A stretch of DNA of 48,907 nucleotides from Chitinophagales bacterium (GTDB lineage Bacteria; Bacteroidota; Bacteroidia; Chitinophagales; S012-47). Location: positions 1 through 48,907 of the forward strand of contig WFPF01000096.1 in assembly GCA_015487695.1 (NCBI GenBank), written 5' to 3'. The notes under the pieces are model-generated. The model was not told the origin of the DNA. It worked only from the letters and a program-made list of their open reading frames with translations, and did no database searches. Each line of letters starts with the position of its first letter. Position 1 is the stretch's first letter. A program made the position numbers and the translations under genes. Below, one piece after another: positions 620 to 45,470 of the stretch.

Positions 620-3600
620 TTATTGATGAATGACGATCAGTTTATTGACGAAGCTATCCTCTCCCGAGCTGAGTTTTACCAGATAGATTCCGGCAGGGAG
701 CTTCGAAGTATCAATTTCATACTGATTTTCGCTGATGGCTTCTATGGGAGCATCCCAGAGTTTACGTCCATCGCTGCTTACAAGCTCAATACGCAGGTCT
801 GAGAGCTTCGGATTGACCAGCAGGAGCCGGGAATTCTTATCAGCGGGGTTTGGATAAAGAATCATCTGTGAATCTTCAAAGTACCATTCGAGGGGCGTAA
901 GGTTCAGACTCGTGTAGGAGACGCAGGCACTGTTGCCTGCAAAGAGCCATACACTCACCGGATCAGGGCCCGAAAGGGTGAAAACGGGCTCTTTCAGCCG
1001 ACTGCTGTCCAAGATTCCCAGCTTCCACTCATATGTCGTGGCATGCACGCTATGGTTTAGCAATTGGATGGCACCTTTCCCGATGGGCAGAATCTCAAAC
1101 AGGGCAACGGGTGTGTCAATGACGTTAATGTTTTTCGTTACGGTCAGCGAATCTTCTATGCGAACCACCTTGACCGTCACCTTTTTCTTTCCTTTGCTCA
1201 TATAGCGGACATTGGCAATGTAGGTGCCGGATACGGTCTGAGGTATGGCATCGGGCCCGAAATTCCATTCAATTCTTTTTACCCGGGTATTGATATCCAC
1301 TCTGAATTCATGCTCCCTGGACAGGCAGACGGAATCGTTGCTTACGATTTCAGCTTCAAGAGCCACATCGTCATATAACTTGAAATCATCTAGGGCAATA
1401 TCACTGGCAAAGCCGCCACCTGTAATCCCGATGATTTTGACAACCACGTTTTTTCCTTTCCATGGCGAGAGGTCCAGCACATGCTCATGCCAGAAATTGC
1501 CCTGATTGCCATAATACTTCTTCAGGCTTAGCCAGCCGCTTCCGTCATTTATCAATATTTCCAGGGTTCCGATATCCGCACCAAACATGTGATACCAGAA
1601 ACTCAGTTTTGGATTTTGCAGGCCGTTGAGATCGAAGCAGGGGAGGTAGAGGCTGGCCTGCTGGTAGGAGCACTCTCCGCTGGCTTCGAGGTAGAGGTAG
1701 CGGCCGATCCCGGTGCCGGGGTTGTGATCCATCGAAGGGCCCGTGCCCACGGTGCTCGTACCGGAAATGTCAATCCTCCAGTCGATATCATCTATCACTC
1801 CGTTGGGGGCATTTACAAGGCCTTTGTTCAGGTCACAGACCGTAAATCCGCAATTCGGTGCAATTCCACACGGAAAGTTACTCTCCAGATCGTCACGATA
1901 GGGTGCTGTAACGAGGGTGCTTCCCTGGCTTTGATACTGCACCTCAAGGGTGTCATCGCAGTTGTTCCTATCGGCAGGAAAAGAAATCCAGGCCTTCAGG
2001 GTATTGACTCCCGGAAGCGGCAGTGCTATTCTGCCCGGAAAAGTTATTGTCTTCGAACTGCCCGCGGGGATGATGACATTGCTCTTATACTCTACAATGC
2101 GCCCGTTGTATTCGTAGTAGAGCAGGGGGGACGACAAATCGCTGTTGCTGTAATTGTTCAGCTCCAGGATGACCGGCAGGCTGTCACCGTAAAGGCAGGA
2201 AGAAATCAATTCCCTGCCCGGAGAAAGTATTTGTCCGAGGGTCAGGTTGCTGTCAATATCACAAAGAAAAGTACCTTCTTCCTTCTTCACGGCAACGGCC
2301 CGGGGTCCTTCCATGCCATCTTTCATTGCTGAGACAGATACCCAGTTTTCCTTATAGGCACCCGGCCTTTCAATCAGAAATTGGTTGGAAGTGGAATTTC
2401 CCGCAACACTCATATAGAGTGAATCGAGGATGTACACGCGATATGAATCGACTCCGGCAATGGCATCCCATCGTAAAAAAAGATTCTCGCAGCAGGCCTT
2501 CTCGATCCGGATATTTGAAGGCGTGGGCAGGACAGCGAAGAACTCCGGGCTTTCATCCATATACGGGCCCGACTCCACTCTGACCTTAACCGGCCCGCTG
2601 ATTCCGGCCGGCAAAACCCAGTAATAGGCAAATGCAGTAGGGCTCGCGGCTGCTGAGATCAGATTCCAGTTTTGACCCGAGTCGGCCGAATAATAAAGTT
2701 TTACCGGGTCGTTGCTTTTGCTGAAATTTTCCCAGCTGATATAGGAAGCAAAGCTTTCCTCATCCACCGATTCGCCTCCGCGGGGATATATCAGTGTAAT
2801 GCCCCGATCGGGAAGGTAATAGCTGATATAAAACTCTTGCCGGTTCAGCGGAACCTCAAAACCTTTGACAATGAGCCGGTAATTGCCGGGTTGCGGCAGA
2901 TCAATGAATACCTGCTCCATATTGTTCAGATGGTCGATGCCATGCCGGGCTGCTTTGTTTAAACTGTCGCTGTTGGCTGCTGTGCTTAGCACATAGGGCA
3001 GAACGGTATCGCCTGCCGGTGTGATCACTATGAGATCAAGATCATTGATGAGGGCTTTGCTCACACCGGCATTGGCAGCAAGGTCGTGCCAATAGAGCAT
3101 AAAACGCGCTTCGGCTTTTCCTGCAGCTACATTGATCTGGAATTCCCGGCTTTCGCCTTGCCCGACTGAATCGCTGAAATAAGCATCATCCAGTATAAGG
3201 CGGGCAGCCGCATAGTTGTTGATCAGGCCCCATCCGTAAATGAAATCGGGGCCCTTTTTACCGAGGTCCCGGGCACTGTTTAATACGTGGCATTTGATCA
3301 GTGCCGATGGCGGGTTGGCCCCGTTGTGGCTGCTTTTATACGCTTCATAAAGCAGGGCCAGTGATCCCGAAACGGCAGGGCATGACATGGAAGTACCGGT
3401 CTTTAATTCATATGAATCCGGATTAACGGTGGAATAGACATTGGTTCCTTTGGCCGAGATATCGGGCTTGATGCGTCCATCGCTGGAAGGCCCCCGGCTG
3501 CTGCTGTTGTTGATGAATCCCAGGTCATTGACATTGGCTACCGTAATAACATTCTTTGCCACCTTGTGCCCACCGGTGATATTTCCCCACTGAGTACCGG

Positions 3601-4696
3601 CTCCATAGCCGCAGTTTGAGTTGTTGCTGTTGCCGGCCGAGAAGACATGCATAAGGTCGGGAAACAAATTGATCGAGCGGTCCTGGGCCTTGGCGGTGGC
3701 CGTGTAGCCGTCATTGCAGCCATTGCTGTAGGAAGTCGAGCTGATCACAATTCCGTAGCGATCATGGTGTTTCAGAATGCTGTCGTTCATCGGCTCGTAA
3801 TTGTATACAACCAGCTCCACACCCGGAGCCATTCCGCGCCCTTTGGGATCTATATTTCCCGCACCCATGATGGTTCCGCCTGTATGATCCCCGTGGTTTC
3901 CGAAATTATTATTTGGGAATTGCTTTACGATCCGGTTCTTGTAATCGGCATGAGGGCCGATTATTCCATCATCCTGCAACTGTACCCGAATGCCTTTTCC
4001 GGTAAAGGAAAGACCGGAATGGCTGAGCCCGTTCAACAGCGAGGCTTGTCCGGATATGGCAGCCGTATAGTTTTCCGGTGTGCCGGGTTCCCCGATGCCT
4101 TCTATGTACTGCACCCATGGGAGGGCTGCCAGCTCTTCCAGTTCTTCCGGGGGTACTTGTATTTCAAACAATTGCCCGAGCTCCGAATGGCGGATGATTT
4201 CCCAGCCCTTTCTTTCCAGCTCCCTTTGGGCTTCCTCTATTCTGCAGTCTTTAAAATACGAAGCATAGACGGATATTCTCTTGCCGGATATCATGTAATC
4301 GGGAAGAGGACGCGCCATGAGACGGGGTTCGATTTTCAGCCCGGCCGACAAGGGAATGAGTGCCCGGATCTGCCCCGTGAGCATTTCTTCCCGGGCTGTG
4401 CCGGCATTTTTGCGGTAGCGAACATAATAGGCATGCCCTCCGATATATCCGAGTATTTCGAAACCCGACTCCTTCAGTGCCTTGCGTTCCTGCGGGCCGG
4501 GTATCTTATAAAATTGCATAATGAATACGCTATTCTCGCTTTTTGAAGCATTTTCGCGGAGCTGCTTTGCAATGCTTTCTTCCTCCCCGGCTTCGGGTGT
4601 TGTCTGAAGAGTTTTCAGCGGAATAAGGTAGTTGCTTTCCTGTGCAAAAAGGCTGAGTGTCAGGAAAAGGATGGGGATGAGTAGCGTTTTCTTCAT
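620..4696 (-). CDS. Secreted S8 (subtilisin-like) serine peptidase with T9SS sorting domain
   Basis: The start at 4696 (MKKTLLIPILFLTLSLFAQ) was chosen because it begins directly with a signal peptide; a longer reading frame back to 4741 would run into the upstream gene. The product is 1358 residues. Subtilase catalytic residues are visible: Asp in LQDDGIIG (about 242), His in HGDHTGG (about 271), oxyanion Asn in SAGNSN (about 356) and Ser in GTSMSCP (about 436). The roughly 220 residues before the catalytic domain look like a propeptide. After the protease come beta-sandwich-like segments, fibronectin-type and PKD-like stretches, and a final 80 residues with YPNPADKNSR and PAGIYLVKL, typical of a type A T9SS sorting signal. 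It is therefore expected to cross the outer membrane and be released or anchored on the surface. The stop of the preceding gene is 8 nt upstream. Confidence 0.93.
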   Translation of the reverse strand: MKKTLLIPILFLTLSLFAQESNYLIPLKTLQTTPEAGEEESIAKQLRENASKSENSVFIMQFYKIPGPQERKALKESGFEILGYIGGHAYYVRYRKNAGTAREEMLTGQIRALIPLSAGLKIEPRLMARPLPDYMISGKRISVYASYFKDCRIEEAQRELERKGWEIIRHSELGQLFEIQVPPEELEELAALPWVQYIEGIGEPGTPENYTAAISGQASLLNGLSHSGLSFTGKGIRVQLQDDGIIGPHADYKNRIVKQFPNNNFGNHGDHTGGTIMGAGNIDPKGRGMAPGVELVVYNYEPMNDSILKHHDRYGIVISSTSYSNGCNDGYTATAKAQDRSINLFPDLMHVFSAGNSNNSNCGYGAGTQWGNITGGHKVAKNVITVANVNDLGFINNSSSRGPSSDGRIKPDISAKGTNVYSTVNPDSYELKTGTSMSCPAVSGSLALLYEAYKSSHNGANPPSALIKCHVLNSARDLGKKGPDFIYGWGLINNYAAARLILDDAYFSDSVGQGESREFQINVAAGKAEARFMLYWHDLAANAGVSKALINDLDLIVITPAGDTVLPYVLSTAANSDSLNKAARHGIDHLNNMEQVFIDLPQPGNYRLIVKGFEVPLNRQEFYISYYLPDRGITLIYPRGGESVDEESFASYISWENFSKSNDPVKLYYSADSGQNWNLISAAASPTAFAYYWVLPAGISGPVKVRVESGPYMDESPEFFAVLPTPSNIRIEKACCENLFLRWDAIAGVDSYRVYILDSLYMSVAGNSTSNQFLIERPGAYKENWVSVSAMKDGMEGPRAVAVKKEEGTFLCDIDSNLTLGQILSPGRELISSCLYGDSLPVILELNNYSNSDLSSPLLYYEYNGRIVEYKSNVIIPAGSSKTITFPGRIALPLPGVNTLKAWISFPADRNNCDDTLEVQYQSQGSTLVTAPYRDDLESNFPCGIAPNCGFTVCDLNKGLVNAPNGVIDDIDWRIDISGTSTVGTGPSMDHNPGTGIGRYLYLEASGECSYQQASLYLPCFDLNGLQNPKLSFWYHMFGADIGTLEILINDGSGWLSLKKYYGNQGNFWHEHVLDLSPWKGKNVVVKIIGITGGGFASDIALDDFKLYDDVALEAEIVSNDSVCLSREHEFRVDINTRVKRIEWNFGPDAIPQTVSGTYIANVRYMSKGKKKVTVKVVRIEDSLTVTKNINVIDTPVALFEILPIGKGAIQLLNHSVHATTYEWKLGILDSSRLKEPVFTLSGPDPVSVWLFAGNSACVSYTSLNLTPLEWYFEDSQMILYPNPADKNSRLLLVNPKLSDLRIELVSSDGRKLWDAPIEAISENQYEIDTSKLPAGIYLVKLSSGEDSFVNKLIVIHQ

Positions 4697-4704
4697 TTGG
4701 GTGT

Positions 4705-6348
4705 TTATTGGCCGGGCTTTTTGATGATTTGATCCAACCACGGATCGGGTGAAGCAAATGTAAATCGAAGTCTGGCCAGGCAGGTAGATTCATATCGGAC
4801 TCCCGGATAAGTCTCTTTGATCGTCATTCGATATTTCCCTGCCGGCATCATCACTTCGTACGAACTGGTCACCAGATCGGAGAGCACAATTAACTTGCGA
4901 TAGGGACCGTCTGTTTGTTCGATTTGTAGCATTTTCACGCGGCCGAATTTCCGATAAATATCATTGTTGCTTCTAATCCCAGTGTAAAATTTTATCTCTT
5001 TGACACTTTGCCGGGTTTCAAATTCAAGGTATTCGCCCACACCTCCGGCAGCGCACCAGGCGGTCGTTGTGCTAAAGGTATTTGCCCTGGCTTGCCCGTC
5101 TGTCTCAATGCTGTCGCTCGATTCATCAAAGGCCCAAACGGGATGATAGCCCTGGTCCAGCCTTAGGTAAGGCTCTCCCGAATCATCGCAGTCGGCCGTG
5201 TACTTGCCGTCAAGCAATACCCGGGTATGATGCACTTTCTTCAGTGCCCGGCCCGTGAATCCGAGGGTGCCGTCCAGCCCGTTGAGATAAGGTGGGACGT
5301 TGGTATAAATACTCACTTCTTCCTCCGATTGCAGGCAGTCTCCGTTGAGTCGTATCTCGTTTTGATACCATGAGGAAGCGGAGATTTTGTCGATGGCTTG
5401 CGGGATATACACCGGAACGGCCCTTGCATCGCCCTCGTAGCAGGCACATCCGATATCTTTGACATCGTAAAAAGCAATTCGTTCGTTGCGTTGGGGTTTG
5501 TGATTTTCGATAATCACCAGATTGATGTCATGATCCATCATAGCCTGTTTGTAATCCATATAATAGGGCAGAGCCACGCTGCCATCATTGGCCGAGGAGG
5601 CCAGATAAAGACGCTTGACTTTGTCGCCCCAGCCCGCGATGCCGGTGGTGGAAACGGGTACATACAGCTTCGTGCTCTCTTTGCCGGTGAGAAATGCCGG
5701 GCTCAGAAATTCCCATTCCAGTTCGCTGCGCGAGTCGGCAGGAAAGACAAGCTGCAATTTCTGCTTCACTTCCATCTGAAGAACTCCCGGGTCTTCGGGA
5801 CGGTCTTTGTTCCACCTGAACTCCAGTTCGCAGCGCTCGTAATGCAGTGCCCGGCCGTCCTGCACAATGGCATAGGCCATGTCGAGTTTGGGCAGGTCGC
5901 GCACGTTCATAAAGCGCCTGATAAAGACTTTTTTGGAAAAGAGAGCTTCCATTTCTTCCCTGATTTGCTGCTCATTGCCCTGCAAGCGGAAAAGACCGGG
6001 TACGGCCGCAGCCACATTGTCAAGGATCAGGGAGCGCTGCCTGCGGTCAAATTCATTAAAGTAAACGCGGTTTGGCACAGTAGCCTCTGCAAACACCTTT
6101 TTCTTGCTTTTATTTACAAATGAATAATGCACCGAAAAGCGGGCAAAAGCATCGTAGCGCCCATGATCGTTTTTGATATAGCGAAAGCCTTTAAAATGAA
6201 TAAGAATCCGCTCCAGCACAATATCGTTTTGGGCTTCTGCCGGGGCAAGCAATCCCGGAACGGCCGTTGCACCGATACGAAAGTCGCTCTGGGCATGGAC
6301 TTGGGCTGAAAAGAAAAAGGCTATGGCAAGGAGGAAGCTTCGGATCAT
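4705..6348 (-). CDS. Secreted protein with C-terminal discoidin-like / NADase-type glycan-binding-like domain
   Basis: The 547-residue product starts MIRSFLLAIAFFFSAQVHAQ, a clear signal peptide. That ATG overlaps the TGA of the TPR gene in an ATGA, which decides the start over an ATG 18 nt earlier. Residues 20-380 are unfamiliar and carry several Cys, suggesting a periplasmic or surface fold with disulfides. From about residue 400, a stretch with DSIETDGQ, AWCAAGGVGEYLEFET, VKEIKFYTGI and KFGRVKMLQIE resembles the jelly-roll module called NADase-type glycan-binding or discoidin-like, which usually binds carbohydrate. There is no T9SS tail. It is the operon neighbour of the T9SS subtilase, so it may act in the same envelope process. 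The domain call is by pattern only. Confidence 0.6.
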   Translation of the reverse strand: MIRSFLLAIAFFFSAQVHAQSDFRIGATAVPGLLAPAEAQNDIVLERILIHFKGFRYIKNDHGRYDAFARFSVHYSFVNKSKKKVFAEATVPNRVYFNEFDRRQRSLILDNVAAAVPGLFRLQGNEQQIREEMEALFSKKVFIRRFMNVRDLPKLDMAYAIVQDGRALHYERCELEFRWNKDRPEDPGVLQMEVKQKLQLVFPADSRSELEWEFLSPAFLTGKESTKLYVPVSTTGIAGWGDKVKRLYLASSANDGSVALPYYMDYKQAMMDHDINLVIIENHKPQRNERIAFYDVKDIGCACYEGDARAVPVYIPQAIDKISASSWYQNEIRLNGDCLQSEEEVSIYTNVPPYLNGLDGTLGFTGRALKKVHHTRVLLDGKYTADCDDSGEPYLRLDQGYHPVWAFDESSDSIETDGQARANTFSTTTAWCAAGGVGEYLEFETRQSVKEIKFYTGIRSNNDIYRKFGRVKMLQIEQTDGPYRKLIVLSDLVTSSYEVMMPAGKYRMTIKETYPGVRYESTCLARLRFTFASPDPWLDQIIKKPGQ

Positions 6349-39607: not shown

Positions 39608-40291
39608 ATGATTCACAGTGTATTGAGCGAGTATGAAGTGCCCTTTTACGGGGCCCTCGGTGACGAGGGAAAAGAGCGTTTTCAGTACCGCGTAAGAGAC
39701 TATCTGAAGGGCCGCCAGATCAAAGGACCAAAAGCACAGGAAGTGGAAGACGAAGTGAAAATCCTGATCGCTGCGGCAGCCGTCACGCTCACATTCGCTG
39801 TGCATAAGTTTTGGTATCCCTATTTTAACCTCATCCTGCTGCGTGAAGGCGATTACGGGGAGCTGATCCGCAAGCGCTATCAGAGAAATCAAGTCAGAAT
39901 GCAGGGCGCCATTGTGATAGCCAAAGAACTGCTCACGGAGGCTTCGCGCCATCCGGAGAAAGTGCTCCATCCCGGCTTTCACGAATTTGCCCATGCCATA
40001 TATCACGAGAATGCCATCGAAGGAGAAGGGTATATGGAGATCACAGAGGAAGCGTGCCGTGAAAAAATGAATGCCCATGCCGGGGAATTGAAAGGCTTTG
40101 ATCTTCTGCCTGCAGAACTCCTTGAAAAGAGTGGCATTTACCCCCAGCAGTTCTTTGCCTCTGCCATGCTGTGGCATTTTTCGCGCCCCGATGAATTTAA
40201 AAGCGCTGCACCGGAACTTTCAGCCTGGTTAAACGGTGTTATAACTATACAAAAACAATCCAACCATGAAAAGGCTACTGGTCCCCACTGA
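39608..40291 (+). CDS. MtfA-like zinc-dependent peptidase, divergent active site
   Basis: The 227-residue product has the MtfA layout: IAAAAVTLTFAVHKFWYP as the core helix, and a gluzincin-like H125-E126-F-A-H129 motif in HPGFHEFAH. In E. coli MtfA the third zinc ligand is a Glu in the later EcFAVlSE-type helix. The matching segment here reads QQFFASAMLWHF, so Gln181 would replace it. MtfA processes or titrates the Mlc repressor in enterobacteria; no Mlc-like gene is near here, although a ROK kinase lies 4 kb away. The 3' end overlaps the USP gene by 26 nt. Activity is uncertain because of the altered ligand, while the fold assignment is fairly safe. Confidence 0.75.
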   Translation: MIHSVLSEYEVPFYGALGDEGKERFQYRVRDYLKGRQIKGPKAQEVEDEVKILIAAAAVTLTFAVHKFWYPYFNLILLREGDYGELIRKRYQRNQVRMQGAIVIAKELLTEASRHPEKVLHPGFHEFAHAIYHENAIEGEGYMEITEEACREKMNAHAGELKGFDLLPAELLEKSGIYPQQFFASAMLWHFSRPDEFKSAAPELSAWLNGVITIQKQSNHEKATGPH

Positions 40292-41111
40292 TTTCTCTTC
40301 AGCTTCTGACCGCGCGGTTGATTTCGCCATCATGCTTGCCGATAAACTGAATACTGAAATTCTCTTTCTGCATGCCTACGATTTCCCCAATGCCGACCCC
40401 TTCGATCCGGCCTATCTTTATGGCGGCAGTGTGGCCGGACCTGTTGATCTTGACGCAGATCAGCGAAAATTGATAGAGGCTCAGCTTAAGAAATATTGTG
40501 ATTATGTAGCCCGCAAAAGCGAGAATCGTGTTTTCTGTGATTATCTCTCGGCTGCCGGAGTACATATCGATGAACTCATTGCCACCCTCGAAAGTCTGGA
40601 CGACTCGATGGTGATCATGGGTACCCGCGGTCACAATCCCGGGGATGATATATTGATCGGCAGCAATGCAGCCCGCATGGTCGAAAAGTCACCGGTTCCC
40701 GTCATTGTCGTTCCACGCGGAGCCGGGGTCTCCCCGTTAAAGGAAGTCGTCTATGCCTCCTCATTGATGGAAGGCGACATCAGGCCATTGACGATTCTGA
40801 CGGAAATTCTGAAAGCTTTTGACTCGAATCTGCATATCATTCATATCGAAAAGGTAATAGACCGCGAAGATGTGGATGTCCTTGAGGCCTATCAGGAAAT
40901 TATTCAGGATCATATCCATTTTCCGAAGATCACCTTTGCGCTGGTAAGTGGCGATGATGTGATCGACCGGATCAACGAATATGCCCGCGAAGTGGACGCA
41001 AGCATGGTGGCCATGCTCAGCGAACGAAGGGGAGGATTATTTCACAAGAGCCTGAGCAAGGAGATGGTTTTTCATACCCGGGTGCCGCTGATGGTCTTTC
41101 ATCACGGATGA
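40266..41111 (+). CDS. Tandem universal stress protein
   Basis: The 281-residue product contains two UspA domains. The first starts MKRLLVPTDFSSASDRAVDFA and ends with the nucleotide-binding loop GTRGHNPGDDILIGSNA followed by VEKSPVPVIVVP. The second starts near residue 155 (EVVYASSLMEGD) and ends LSERRGGLFHKSLSKEMVF, where the ATP-loop glycines are largely lost. Such tandem proteins are usual in Bacteroidota and respond to starvation or stress. Its ATG lies inside the end of the MtfA-like gene (26-nt overlap), so translation is coupled. It overlaps the 3' end of the convergent HD gene by 10 nt. Confidence 0.92.
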   Translation: MKRLLVPTDFSSASDRAVDFAIMLADKLNTEILFLHAYDFPNADPFDPAYLYGGSVAGPVDLDADQRKLIEAQLKKYCDYVARKSENRVFCDYLSAAGVHIDELIATLESLDDSMVIMGTRGHNPGDDILIGSNAARMVEKSPVPVIVVPRGAGVSPLKEVVYASSLMEGDIRPLTILTEILKAFDSNLHIIHIEKVIDREDVDVLEAYQEIIQDHIHFPKITFALVSGDDVIDRINEYAREVDASMVAMLSERRGGLFHKSLSKEMVFHTRVPLMVFHHG

Positions 41112-41761
41112 TCGCCCGCTTCCCATTCCCGGTAAAAACGTTCCAGAAAAAGCTCCATGAAGCGGTGTCTTTCTTCGGCTATGCGTTGTGCGCTGCGCGT
41201 ATGCATGCGCTCTTTTAGCAGAAGCAACTTTTCGTAGAAATGATTGATCGTGGGATTTTCCGACTTCCTGTAGCTTTCAAAATCGTGGTGCAGGACAGGC
41301 GGAATATCAGGATCGTAGAGGGCTCGATTTCGCGAGCCTCCATAGGCAAATGTGCGGGCAATACCGATGGCTCCGATGGCATCAAGGCGGTCGGCATCCT
41401 GAACGATCTGTGCCTCCAGACTGCTCGCGGCATCAGGGACACGGGCCCCTTTGTATGACACCTCTCCGATAATGCCGGCTACCCGTTCGATCAATTCTTC
41501 TTCTGCGCCCTGTTCCCTGAGAAATGCGGCAGCCACGGCCGGGCCCTTCTTCAGGTCGCCATCGTGAAACTTGTGATCGGCAATGTCATGCAGCAGAGCC
41601 GCCAACTCGATGCAAAACAGGTCTCCGCCTTCCGTTTCCGATAAATGTACGGCCATCTTCCAAACCCTGTAGATGTGCCACCAGTCGTGCCCGCTGCCAT
41701 CTCCTGCGAGTGTGTCTTTTACAAATTCGATGGTCCGGGCTTTGAGTTCTTCTCTTTTCAT
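41102..41761 (-). CDS. HD-domain phosphohydrolase
   Basis: The 219-residue product has the metal-binding motif of HD hydrolases: H29 in GHDWWHIYRVW, the paired H58-D59 in LLHDIADHKF, and an Asp in IVQDADRLDAIGAIG. The pattern (GHDWWHIxRV, ADRLDAIGAIGIARTF) is that of the YedJ/YpgQ-like subgroup, predicted to cleave phosphate from nucleotides. Substrate unknown. Its ATG overlaps the stop of the upstream membrane-protein gene by 4 nt (ATGA), so both are in one operon with the DUF885-like gene. Confidence 0.9.
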   Translation of the reverse strand: MKREELKARTIEFVKDTLAGDGSGHDWWHIYRVWKMAVHLSETEGGDLFCIELAALLHDIADHKFHDGDLKKGPAVAAAFLREQGAEEELIERVAGIIGEVSYKGARVPDAASSLEAQIVQDADRLDAIGAIGIARTFAYGGSRNRALYDPDIPPVLHHDFESYRKSENPTINHFYEKLLLLKERMHTRSAQRIAEERHRFMELFLERFYREWEAGDHP

Positions 41762-42201
41762 GCACGCAACTCCGTTTTGTCGGGCTTCGCACTGATGAGA
41801 AAGGCAAGATGGAATATCGCAAAAATCAAATAGACGGCATTGTTAAGTATCATGCTTGTTACAATCCCCAGCAATGCGGGGCCTTCGCTGAGCGACCACT
41901 GAATAATCTTATAACTTCGATAGGCATAGAAGCGCTGGCGATTGTCCGTTTCGGCCTTGCGTTTCTCCGGGCCGTATAGCTTCTTTTTGACCATGGGTAC
42001 TACAATAAGCGGAATGAGTGCGACACAAAGATTCATGATCAAAAAGGGAACACTGTCCACCGGATAGGCAAAGAAAAGACCTTCCGGATACATAAGCAAA
42101 ACACTAACCATAAAGATGAGAATACCTGCAATCAATGAGTAATGAATGATCTGCAGGGGCAGCCACTCTTCCTTTATTCCTTCCAGGGGATCTTTCGCCA
42201 T
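41758..42201 (-). CDS. Four-helix integral membrane protein of unknown function
   Basis: The 147-residue product has two hydrophobic hairpins: about 20-42 and 52-72, then, after a charged loop with KKKLYGPEKRKAETDNRQRF, two more helices at about 103-123 and 125-140. There is no signal peptide and no recognised motif. It lies between the DUF885-like gene (14-nt gap) and the HD gene (4-nt overlap). It is probably a cytoplasmic-membrane protein; function unknown. Confidence 0.68.
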   Translation of the reverse strand: MAKDPLEGIKEEWLPLQIIHYSLIAGILIFMVSVLLMYPEGLFFAYPVDSVPFLIMNLCVALIPLIVVPMVKKKLYGPEKRKAETDNRQRFYAYRSYKIIQWSLSEGPALLGIVTSMILNNAVYLIFAIFHLAFLISAKPDKTELRA

Positions 42202-42215
42202 AGTGTTTCTTTTTC

Positions 42216-43526
42216 TTAAGGTGTAAAATGCCGGTCAAGGCGATCGAAGACCATGGCCGGTGGCAGGGAGCCGAATCCGAGCAGAACCGAATAAAATTCG
42301 GGGGCTTTGATCTTCCGGTCCCAGTAAATTTTTGATGCCATCAGTTTGGAATCTATCTCGAAACCGGTCCATGCCGGAACGCTGTAATAGCCCGGTTTTT
42401 TTCTGATTTTCCGGATGATCTCTTCCCCGTTCCTGTTCCAGGGAATGGCATCCTGCCAGTATTTCAGACCCTCTTCGGGCGACCAGGCCTCGAGATACAT
42501 TCCGTAGTCGATGCGGGTGATCACGGCTATTTCTTTTTGAAACATCAGGGCCTCGGCCTTCGAGTAGGGATCATTGTAAAGCTGCAGCCGCGACCCCAGC
42601 CGTGTGGCATAAATTGACCAGCCCTCTCTGAATGCGTGATCGCTGCAGAGGTCTTTCCACTCTGACGGCATGGCTTCTATATGGTTGATAACATGCTGTC
42701 CGGCAAGCTGATAAACCAAAATATAGTCGAGTGCCGAGCGCGGAAATCCCCGGGCCGGCATCGGCAGGTGCAGCACATTGCCCACGAGGCGGCCCATCTT
42801 TCCGTCTCCGTCTGTCTCAATGCGAACATCGGGCAGGTCGAGGCCCAGCAGGGAGCGGAGATTTTGCAATATCAACCCGCTGCGCTCGCTCGCTTCTCTC
42901 AGCAGTTCTTCCCGGCTCCGGATCAGGTTGCGTCCGTCATCGCCCCGGAGGTAGGCATAGAAGCCGGCTGCATCTCCTTTGTAGCCCGTTTCTTCAATGA
43001 TTTGATTAAGCCGCTGATCGCGCATGGCAGCAATGCTTTCTCCGTAAACTTTCAGCTTTTGCGGGTTCATGCTGCCGTCACCGTAGTAATATTTCATGTA
43101 GAGGGCATACCATTCCTCGCTGACTGGCGGCTCAGCTGCAGGCTCTTCACTCCCGTTTTCTGCATCGTAGCTGCCGTTCTCGTTGACATCCGCCTCATCG
43201 AGTTGCAGGTTGATGAATCCGAGGGCCAGCTCCGAACTCAGCTTCATAAGGTCGTAATGCACCTTTTGTTTTTCGTCCAACCGGTATCTTTTTATGGCAT
43301 CCAGCCGTTCGGCAAAATCATTGAATGCTTTGCTGATGGCAAGCATTTGCTCTTTGCTGAGCATTTGCGCCTGTGTAGCTTCAAAGTCGGGCAGGATGCG
43401 CGGTGCATGCATCTCTTTGTAGCTATTGAGGTATTCCGGCAACAACTGTTCAAAGGCCAGGGAGTCGCTGTTTTTTTGCGCGAAAAGCAGCGTGGGAAAA
43501 AGAAGAAGGAAGATTAGGCTTCGCAT
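42216..43526 (-). CDS. DUF885-like secreted protein, apparent pseudo-enzyme
   Basis: The 436-residue product has a signal peptide (RSLIFLLLFPTLLFAQ). The scaffold of DUF885 metallo-hydrolases is recognisable in FREGWSIYATRLGSRLQLY (about 299), HLPMPARGFPRSALDYILVY and ITRIDYGMYLEAWSPEEGL. However, the active-site motif, normally HExxPGHH, reads YQLAGQHV (272-279), so the first His and catalytic Glu are replaced by Tyr and Gln. The later DxGxH reads D-Y-G-M-Y (340-344). With these losses it probably cannot bind zinc normally. An acidic insert of about 25 residues (about 110-135, rich in Asn, Glu, Gly) is also present. First gene of a three-gene operon. Confidence 0.75.
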   Translation of the reverse strand: MRSLIFLLLFPTLLFAQKNSDSLAFEQLLPEYLNSYKEMHAPRILPDFEATQAQMLSKEQMLAISKAFNDFAERLDAIKRYRLDEKQKVHYDLMKLSSELALGFINLQLDEADVNENGSYDAENGSEEPAAEPPVSEEWYALYMKYYYGDGSMNPQKLKVYGESIAAMRDQRLNQIIEETGYKGDAAGFYAYLRGDDGRNLIRSREELLREASERSGLILQNLRSLLGLDLPDVRIETDGDGKMGRLVGNVLHLPMPARGFPRSALDYILVYQLAGQHVINHIEAMPSEWKDLCSDHAFREGWSIYATRLGSRLQLYNDPYSKAEALMFQKEIAVITRIDYGMYLEAWSPEEGLKYWQDAIPWNRNGEEIIRKIRKKPGYYSVPAWTGFEIDSKLMASKIYWDRKIKAPEFYSVLLGFGSLPPAMVFDRLDRHFTP

Positions 43527-43578
43527 CGCTTAAAATTTTGCGTAAAGTTAGGGTTTCGTGCTTCAAATTTTAACGAAT

Positions 43579-44157
43579 TTAAACGAGGCTTTCCTGAAGG
43601 AAATTGCCGTTGCCCGCCTCGTGGCTTTCCAGTATTCTGAGCAACTCCTCCGGCTCTGTGGCCACCTTTATTTCATCGCGCATAAAGGATTTGAGCAGGC
43701 CCTGCGAGACCATGTGGTCGAGCTGCCTGAAGAGGTAGTCGTAATAGGAGTCGGTATTCAGCACGGCAATGGGCTTTTTATGAAGATTCAGCTGCGCCCA
43801 GGTGGCTATTTCGAATAATTCTTCGAGCGTGCCGACTCCACCGGGAAGGGCGGCAAAAGCATCGCTAAGTTCAAACATCTTCAGTTTTCTCTCGTGCATC
43901 GATTCGGTGATAATCAGCTCGCTGAGGCCGTGATGCGCGATCTCCACATCGACCAGAAAACGGGGTATCACCCCGATGACCCGGCCTCCGTTTTTCAATA
44001 CCTCATCGGCAATGATTTGCATGATTCCCCGGCTGGCACCCCCGTAGACAAGGGTGATATCTTTGGAAATAAGCAGGCGCCCCAGTTGCTGGGCAGCCTC
44101 CCTGATGCGGGGGTTGTTTCCTTCGGAGCTGGCACAAAATACGGCTAATCGCTTCAT
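43579..44157 (-). CDS. LOG-family Rossmann protein (cytokinin riboside 5'-monophosphate phosphoribohydrolase-like)
   Basis: The 192-residue product shows the full LOG pattern: AVFCASSEGN at the start, LVYGGASRGIMQIIADEVL, and the catalytic pair ESMHERKLKMFELSDAF and ALPGGVGTLEELFEIATWAQL. LOG proteins cleave ribose-5-phosphate from nucleoside monophosphates; in plants and some bacteria this releases active cytokinins, but in most bacteria the substrate is AMP or another nucleotide. Single gene, divergent from the first MFS gene. Confidence 0.93.
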   Translation of the reverse strand: MKRLAVFCASSEGNNPRIREAAQQLGRLLISKDITLVYGGASRGIMQIIADEVLKNGGRVIGVIPRFLVDVEIAHHGLSELIITESMHERKLKMFELSDAFAALPGGVGTLEELFEIATWAQLNLHKKPIAVLNTDSYYDYLFRQLDHMVSQGLLKSFMRDEIKVATEPEELLRILESHEAGNGNFLQESLV

Positions 44158-44266
44158 TGTTTTTCTGATTTATCAAATCAAGAGAAATACAAAAATCGCC
44201 TGCACCGGGAAAATAACGATGGCCTGCCCTGTGGATAGATCCCCTCCAAATGCGTAGTCAGATATT

Positions 44267-44274
44267 TATCTTTG
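44267..44274 (+). promoter_or_regulatory. Putative -7 box of the Tet-like MFS gene
   Basis: TATCTTTG matches TAnnTTTG perfectly and ends 20 nt before the ATG at 44295. A longer in-frame start at 44250 would place this box within the coding region, so the box supports the shorter start. No -33 TTG is found. Confidence 0.4.
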
Positions 44275-44294
44275 CCCTTCTTTCGTCTGATATC

Positions 44295-45470
44295 ATGAGG
44301 AAATCACCGCTTTTTGTCCTTTTTATTACGATTTTCATCGACCTGGTCGGTTTTGGACTCGTCATACCCATTCTGCCCCTCTTTGCGCAGGATTTGGGTG
44401 CCAGCGAGGCATTGATTGGTCTGATAGCGGGCAGTTTTTCCCTTATGCAATTCTTTTTTGCTCCGGTGTGGGGCGGCCTCAGCGATCGTTTCGGCCGGAA
44501 ACCGATTATCATAAGCAGTGTCTTTATCAATGCTTTTGCCTACCTGCTTTTCTCACACAGCACGAGCATCCTCCTGCTCTTCGCATCGCGGGTGCTCTCG
44601 GGCATCGGATCTGCCAATATTTCGGCAGCGCAGGCCTATATCTCGGATGTGACGCCCCCTGAAAAACGGGCCAAATCCTTCGGCATCATCGGGGCAGCCT
44701 TTGGTCTGGGATTCATCTTCGGCCCACCGATAGGCGGATTTCTGAAAATGCAATATGGCGTGGGAATGGTAGGATATGTGGCAGCCGGACTTTGCGCGTT
44801 CAATATTCTGGTGGCCACCTTCCTGCTCCCCGAATCGCTGAAAGTGAAAAACAGAAAGGCAAAAATCTTTCTTTCGCCTTTCGGAAACTTCAAACGCATA
44901 CAGGGCATGCCGGAAGTGCGCAAACTCATCTTTATCAACCTCGTGTTCATTGCGGCTTTCAGCATGATGCACGTGACCTCTACTTTGCTGTGGGAATCGA
45001 AATATCACCGGACCGCTGCAGAGATCGGATACCTTTTTATGTATATCGGTGTGCTTTCGGCCGTCTTCCAGGGAACCCTCATCGGCTTTTTCCAGCGCAG
45101 GCTCGGTGAGCAGAAGATGCTGGTGCTCGGCTGCCTTTCGATGGCCATTGGCCTGGCGTCCCTTCCCTTTGTGCCGCCCGCGTATTTTATGCCGCTCGAA
45201 TACCTCTCCCTGCTGATGATGGTGATGGGCAATTCTCTGCTCATGCCGACAACTACGTCTCTTATTTCAAAGATGGTCTCACCCGGAGAACAGGGTAAAA
45301 TATTGGGCATCAATCAGTCTTTCGCTTCCCTGGGGCGCTTCATCGGACCGATGGTCGGTGGAGCCCTTTATGGAATCGTCTATCACATGCCTTTCTGGGT
45401 CGGTGGATTGCTGATGCTTCTGGTCATGTCGCTGGCCGTTCGTTTTGTCCGCGCTCATGTCCGCACCTGA
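44295..45470 (+). CDS. MFS transporter, TCR/Tet-like drug efflux group
   Basis: The start at 44295 (MRKSPLFVLFITIFIDLVGF) gives the usual first helix. The 391-residue membrane protein has 12 predicted helices, motif A GGLSDRFGRKPII between helices 2 and 3, the LSGIGSANISAAQAYISD region, and GIIGAAFGLGFIFGPPIGG of the antiporter motif C type. These are shared with TetA-like and other drug:H+ antiporters. No tetR-like regulator is adjacent, and the substrate is unknown. It does not show that the organism is drug resistant. Confidence 0.9.
   Translation: MRKSPLFVLFITIFIDLVGFGLVIPILPLFAQDLGASEALIGLIAGSFSLMQFFFAPVWGGLSDRFGRKPIIISSVFINAFAYLLFSHSTSILLLFASRVLSGIGSANISAAQAYISDVTPPEKRAKSFGIIGAAFGLGFIFGPPIGGFLKMQYGVGMVGYVAAGLCAFNILVATFLLPESLKVKNRKAKIFLSPFGNFKRIQGMPEVRKLIFINLVFIAAFSMMHVTSTLLWESKYHRTAAEIGYLFMYIGVLSAVFQGTLIGFFQRRLGEQKMLVLGCLSMAIGLASLPFVPPAYFMPLEYLSLLMMVMGNSLLMPTTTSLISKMVSPGEQGKILGINQSFASLGRFIGPMVGGALYGIVYHMPFWVGGLLMLLVMSLAVRFVRAHVRT

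Follow-up and report, generated by a model that had tools for sequence, protein, structure and literature searches.

Genes at the DUF885 locus

The window, by which we mean the whole stretch of 48,907 nucleotides that was analysed, belongs to a Chitinophagales genome of 2.77 Mb in 137 contigs and contains on its minus strand a gene for a short DUF885 protein (Table 1). The 436-aa protein matches the Pfam family DUF885 (PF05960) with 62.3 bits, above the gathering cut-off of 32.4. Its putative signal peptide, assigned by eye, ends in A-Q and has no lipobox cysteine; with such an N terminus the protein would be exported. The upstream neighbour matches PF03641, which we take to be the LOG family. 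In the 52-bp gap between the two genes, 47 of 52 bases are identical in G001, a genome of the same genus, compared with 129 of 196 four-fold sites of the motif-bearing DUF885 paralog of these genomes, which suggests that the gap behind the LOG gene may hold a control element of the DUF885 gene. A promoter scan of positions 41000-44400, which does not cover Bacteroidota promoters, returned no sigma-70-like site, and a scan of the LOG-DUF885 interval found no terminator-like site.

The membrane-protein gene starts 14 bp downstream of the DUF885 gene and overlaps the HD-domain gene by 4 bp, and the gene order of the region is identical in G001. This spacing and the conserved order are consistent with an operon of the DUF885, membrane-protein and HD genes. 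The best NCBIfam match of the HD gene, PRK10119, lies under its cut-off. Relatives of the 147-aa membrane protein were found in 41 of 248 genomes, 39 of the 41 being outside the genus of the window, and in G003, another genome of the family, the HD gene is present without counterparts of the membrane protein and of the 436-aa protein as neighbours. An M90 metallopeptidase (PF06167) with an HEFAH motif is encoded close to the DUF885 gene at 39608-40291 (+), and a subtilase that carries a MAM domain and, at its C terminus, a Por_Secre_tail sorting domain is encoded at 620-4741 (-). Long antisense open reading frames run opposite the DUF885 gene in both species (42681-43517 (+), 278 aa, in the window; L033:7149-7979 (-), 276 aa, in the other), and we treated them as shadow ORFs because the sense frame has a dN/dS of 0.14.

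Table 1. Positions of the genes and protein features discussed in the text
Feature	Position in window	Strand	Remarks
PF03641 protein (presumably LOG family), upstream neighbour	43579..44157	-	Pfam
Gap between LOG gene and DUF885 gene	43527..43578	-	52 bp; candidate control region
Short DUF885 protein, HExxPGH motif lost	42216..43526	-	436 aa, ATG start, single clean ORF
Putative signal peptide, residues 1-16 (MRSLIFLLLFPTLLFA, then Q17)	43479..43526	-	by eye
G249-N250	42777..42782	-	residues at the shortened stretch; alignments
YQLAGQHV, residues 272-279	42690..42713	-	replaces HExxPGHH; alignments
FREGW, residues 299-303	42618..42632	-	probable third-ligand Glu301 kept
DYGMY, residues 340-344	42495..42509	-	replaces DxGx[H/N]; ortholog DYGIC
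C-terminal block, residues 377-436	42219..42398	-	family Q, Y, G positions replaced
147-aa hydrophobic (membrane) protein	41758..42201	-	no Pfam family over cut-off
HD-domain phosphohydrolase	41102..41761	-	PF01966 over cut-off

Catalytic and scaffold residues of the 436-aa protein

The initial annotation had read YQLAGQHV where the family has HExxPGHH, and both MAFFT and hhalign bear this reading out, with the altered motif starting at residue 272. In the MAFFT alignment, and in the hhalign comparison with short relatives, YQ-LAGQH falls on HExxPGHH with a one-residue gap, such that H is replaced by Y, E by Q, P by A and the first H of HH by Q, with the G and the second H kept. In the hhalign comparison with ordinary DUF885 proteins the gap lies one step earlier and the H and E face V and Y, with LAGQH unchanged; as judged from these alignments, HExxPGHH is lost in either register. 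A better alignment with a true HE motif elsewhere in the protein had been named as the finding that would speak against the loss. We looked for one, and the full 436 aa contain no HE dipeptide, so the objection does not succeed. HExxPGH, which marks a DUF885 zinc hydrolase by its two histidine ligands and general-base glutamate, is thus missing from the protein.

For comparison we used a 60-protein DUF885 alignment, assembled from 81 loci as ORFs at E <= 1e-5 with contained duplicates dropped; it is no random sample, because the loci were fetched mainly by likeness to the 436-aa protein. The 58 proteins other than the 436-aa protein and its G001 ortholog are invariant (58/58) at HExxPGH, where H, E, P, G and H are fixed, at the first two residues of EGW and at the D that opens DxGxH. 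Equally invariant are a glutamate seven positions beyond the one in EGW and, in a C-terminal Q-x3-Y-[KF]-x-G, the residues Q, Y and G. The G001 ortholog has identical losses (YQIAGQHV and DYGIC), and both proteins retain the glutamate of EGW, the G within the altered motif and the D that opens DxGxH. Also missing from the two are the glutamate seven positions beyond that of EGW and the three C-terminal residues Q, Y and G, so that on this alignment the loss of residues exceeds that described earlier. Of the columns in which at least 16 of 17 motif-bearing proteins agree, 39 in all, the 436-aa protein keeps 20. These are G276, H278, E301, G302, W303 and Y306, which lie at or close to the motifs, then D340 and E351, and further columns occupied by L, Y, G, W, F and P. 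In a weaker DUF885 set of 22 listed ORFs, the motif P reads A in 10 proteins that retain HE and GH. The set also held six ORFs without an HExxxGH- or HEGPTxH-type motif: L098 from G147, the partial frames L096_0, L097 and L099, L103, whose match is confined to the last ~30 profile positions, and L106, which groups with the HEGPTxH proteins in the alignment.

Passages of PMC12572635 assign DUF885 to the Peptidase_MA clan and predict, for one DUF885 protein, a zinc site that combines one Glu with both His of an HExxH-type motif. We infer that this Glu corresponds to the EGW glutamate, which makes E301, present in both the 436-aa protein and the G001 ortholog, the likely third metal ligand; a conserved His297 stands four residues ahead of it. 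The earlier statement that the scaffold around the motif is kept agrees with our alignments, in which FREGW begins at residue 299 and the D of DxG is retained. DYGMY was likewise correctly read for DxGxH, at residue 340, but it is not diagnostic, since 3 of 58 DUF885 proteins have Q for the H, and 7 of 11 short relatives with the motif have N; it is therefore not a strict ligand, and its loss alone is no proof of a lost ligand. The proposal that metal ligands had disappeared from two separate sites did not hold for this reason: the loss concerns one site, HExxPGH, with the EGW glutamate remaining, and we rejected a second metal site at DxGxH. The Q directly after the motif is present in 58/58, yet 7 of the 11 motif-bearing short members carry E or H there, and its loss is accordingly not diagnostic either.

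The solved DUF885 structures 3o0y, 3iuk and 3u24 have EGW in common with the 436-aa protein, along with the aspartate of DxG and the C-terminal glycine and proline. Unlike it, they show HExxPGH[HY] and the C-terminal Q, Y and G, and their chains are ~125-175 aa longer. The protein by itself gave a profile match of 8.6e-5 to 3o0y; a profile of the protein and its short relatives, in which five of the seven rows are neither the protein nor its ortholog, matched 3o0y at 4e-46. AlphaFold models from 3-row and 2-row alignments reached a mean pLDDT of 37.7 and 33.9, and because of these low values the case for a retained fold relies on sequence profiles.

Short DUF885 relatives and their gene neighbours

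DUF885 proteins are common in the order (at least 175 of 298 genomes). Full-profile matches to short members (~430-470 aa) were obtained in at least 14 of 396 genomes, with 333-701 bits, using a profile built from the 436-aa protein, its ortholog and five short relatives; the scores of seven of the 14 are inflated because those seven are in the profile, and members may be missed, as few first-look candidates per genome, mostly four, were scored. The 436-aa protein itself scored 554 bits over the full length (about 430 positions), and the other matches listed were partial, at most 251 bits, and came from ordinary DUF885 proteins. Among the matches listed from 395 genomes across the phylum, its own was the only full one. 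When the protein and its ortholog were compared by hhalign with the five short relatives alone, E was 6.6e-22 over 393 columns; the corresponding comparison with ordinary DUF885 proteins gave 3.6e-15 over 282 columns. Full-length identity to motif-bearing short relatives is 20-22%, and local matches in other genomes have 23-33% identity.

With the short subfamily, as defined in this analysis, the 436-aa protein has in common its length and the full-length profile match. In a 20-row tree, 14 short rows, its own among them, are separated from six ordinary ones by a branch with support 100/99. In a 60-row tree with only three other short rows, it and the G001 ortholog lie among ordinary proteins at an unstarred fork (91/73). 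Its branch is very long in both, at 3.4 and 5.7 changes per column, respectively. The protein resembles a rare short DUF885 subfamily, and the two trees place it differently. Its grouping with L006, L007, L034 and L153 was not rejected (p-AU 0.117).

HExxPGHH and EGW are kept in 11 of the 14 short members; the motif is lost in the 436-aa protein, the G001 ortholog and the G147 member (L098/L172:6000-7292, +). In the last, which belongs to another family of the order, the motif reads YKLLPGAYY, and as in the 436-aa protein the preceding stretch is shortened; a PGYY...FFFNF-type stretch precedes the HExxPGHH helix in motif-bearing relatives, and in the 436-aa protein it is shortened at G249-N250. 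Unlike the 436-aa protein, the G147 member has also lost EGW (NAW) but has kept PG. The best tree puts it on another branch, which would amount to two losses, and a single loss was not rejected (p-AU 0.254); the motif-less short members may accordingly go back to one or two loss events.

An ortholog search of the genome contigs returned G001 alone. Two further genomes of the family, 89% and 82% complete, yielded neither the 436-aa protein nor the membrane protein, and no ortholog was found in viral contigs. Queries with ordinary DUF885 proteins located DUF885 at three places in viral contigs. A plasmid collection gave four matches of ~24% identity, all from Pseudoalteromonas, none of which spans 80% of the query.

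The motif-bearing short members mostly lie beside AraC-family regulators and alpha/beta hydrolases. Of the 11, 10 have an AraC-family regulator beside them or one gene off (none was seen for G345), and 9 have an alpha/beta hydrolase nearby, G083 and G074 being the two for which none was seen; the scan covered selected nearby ORFs, and these counts stand without a background rate. At L173, L176, L177, L178, L180, L181, L182 and L183 the short DUF885 gene sits beside the hydrolase, with an AraC regulator too in all except L181, and at L174 and L175 AraC alone adjoins it. In G369, a single ORF (L179:5116-7245, -) joins a motif-bearing short DUF885 protein to a BD-FAE-type alpha/beta hydrolase, a fusion that matches the two-gene arrangement of the relatives. 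The neighbourhood together with this natural fusion provides a lead on the role of the active enzymes.

The gene in the window differs from these members in its surroundings, with neither AraC nor an alpha/beta hydrolase among its nine scanned neighbours; G001 was judged by synteny. The G147 gene lies near SUF genes, a DUF1905/OmdA gene and a GH53, and again neither was seen among its four scanned neighbours. In this small set, which may reflect only one or two events, a missing motif thus coincides with a missing neighbourhood.

Selection on the gene and possible roles of its product

Purifying selection and shared substitutions in close relatives had been proposed as checks on a pseudo-enzyme, and the one ortholog that we found agrees with both. 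The gene and its G001 ortholog encode proteins of 80.0% amino acid identity, with a pS of 0.492, a pN of 0.104, a dN/dS of 0.140 and no inner stops in either. The motif-bearing DUF885 paralog of the same two genomes has 79.2% identity and a dN/dS of 0.159. For ten neighbouring genes the values lie between 0.030 and 0.249: LOG 0.093, HD 0.068, the membrane protein 0.210, a universal stress protein 0.095, the M90 peptidase 0.148, a 169-aa protein 0.083, a PntA-like protein 0.030, two MFS proteins 0.045 and 0.067, and a 145-aa protein 0.249. The DUF885 gene is thus as constrained as its motif-bearing paralog and less constrained than most of its neighbours, as judged from one ortholog pair. Among the nine blocks compared, residues 377-436 are the most conserved, with 95% identity between the two species and a pN of 0.022. 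Loss of catalytic residues under purifying selection, by which a pseudoenzyme is recognised, is what we found here, and the earlier suggestion of a pseudo-enzyme kept by selection is upheld by the lost invariant residues, the dN/dS of 0.14 and the identical gene order in two species.

We consider it probable, with appreciable room for doubt, that the 436-aa protein is a constrained non-catalytic protein, a pseudo-metallohydrolase. Since most catalytic residues have been lost and the gene has been kept by selection, its job is probably one of binding or regulation. In the mechanism that we propose, the exported protein would keep the DUF885 scaffold, on which the ancestral zinc chemistry would no longer be possible, and would work as a binding protein in the cell envelope, where the altered pocket and the nearly invariant C-terminal 60 residues might bind a ligand or a partner. 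The most plausible partner would be the neighbouring 147-aa membrane protein. This partnership is a guess and much less certain than the non-catalytic role, because 39 of the 41 genomes with relatives of the membrane protein lie outside the genus. The protein might be likened to MamO, in which a protease fold has been retained for non-catalytic work.

The main rival to a non-catalytic envelope binding protein holds that the site has been rebuilt, with H278, H297 and E301 forming a moved metal or catalytic site of different metal-binding or hydrolytic activity. All three residues are conserved in both species, H278 faces the second H of HExxPGHH, a His at 297 is absent from the other relatives shown in the alignments (G001 excepted), and passages of PMC10211241 describe migrated catalytic residues in other pseudoenzymes. 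We nevertheless regard a rebuilt site as unlikely, because the general-base Glu, the C-terminal Q, Y, K and G and the H at position 412 are gone and no reliable model brings the three residues together. Bolder still, and improbable in our judgement, is the proposal that the zinc site was erased and that a new site, made of the same three residues, gives, together with a rewritten C-terminal wall, a new activity in the envelope. Alternatively, the protein could be a regulatory subunit that pairs with and modulates the 593-aa motif-bearing DUF885 paralog of its own genome (G000:C23), which is present in both species that have the pseudoenzyme; two-gene operons of prokaryotic M16 peptidases mirror such an arrangement of active and inactive subunits, according to passages of PMC11266112. 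The paralog, however, lies on a separate contig and belongs to a different DUF885 branch, and most DUF885 proteins manage without such a partner, given how common they are and how rare the short ones, which makes a regulatory subunit an unlikely alternative.

Slow decay of a gene without a remaining role would fit the many missing active-site residues and the difference between DYGMY and DYGIC in the two species. We rejected it as very improbable, since the dN/dS is like that of the motif-bearing paralog and inner stops are absent at a pS of 0.49. There is a similarly slim chance of a misalignment, in which case the protein could belong to another family or be an ordinary DUF885 enzyme whose HE motif lies at a different place; the low identities, full-length and local, and the differing position of the hhalign gap in the two comparisons would allow for it. 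That explanation was rejected too, as the HE dipeptide is absent, the profile match over 393 columns is strong, the Pfam score exceeds its cut-off, and the alignments match EGW, the DxG aspartate and the C-terminal glycine and proline.

Pseudopeptidases are already well known, including bacterial MamO and the M16 two-gene operons. MamO resembles the 436-aa protein in its degenerate protease active site and retained scaffold; it differs in belonging to a serine protease family and in that metal binding and the activation of MamE-dependent proteolysis have been shown experimentally (PMC4794232). The inactive metallopeptidase homologues of PMC11266112 have HExxH replaced, as here, and come from families M1, M12, M13, M14, M16, M24 and M41; the main text of that source names no DUF family. 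A limited literature search for DUF885/PF05960, covering titles and abstracts and thus weak evidence of absence, found no functional study, pseudoenzyme or biochemistry, and no activity, metal or binding data for any DUF885 protein. Within the limits of that search, what is new is a pseudoenzyme in DUF885, a family without known function, and a short subfamily that is apparently undescribed. A dismantled yet selected DUF885 protein and its motif-bearing short relatives form a matched pair from which one could learn what the family binds and which of its residues matter.

Two further observations concern the wider family. L101, L102, L107 and L109 (from G207, G290, G032 and G172, respectively) are frames of 546-576 aa that form a distant DUF885-like group, in which HEGPTxH is present and HExxPGH is absent. 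In the single-contig genome G252, matches to the N-terminal and C-terminal parts of DUF885 fall in two adjoining frames (L105/L096, G252:C1:1719736-1721234), possibly a split gene.
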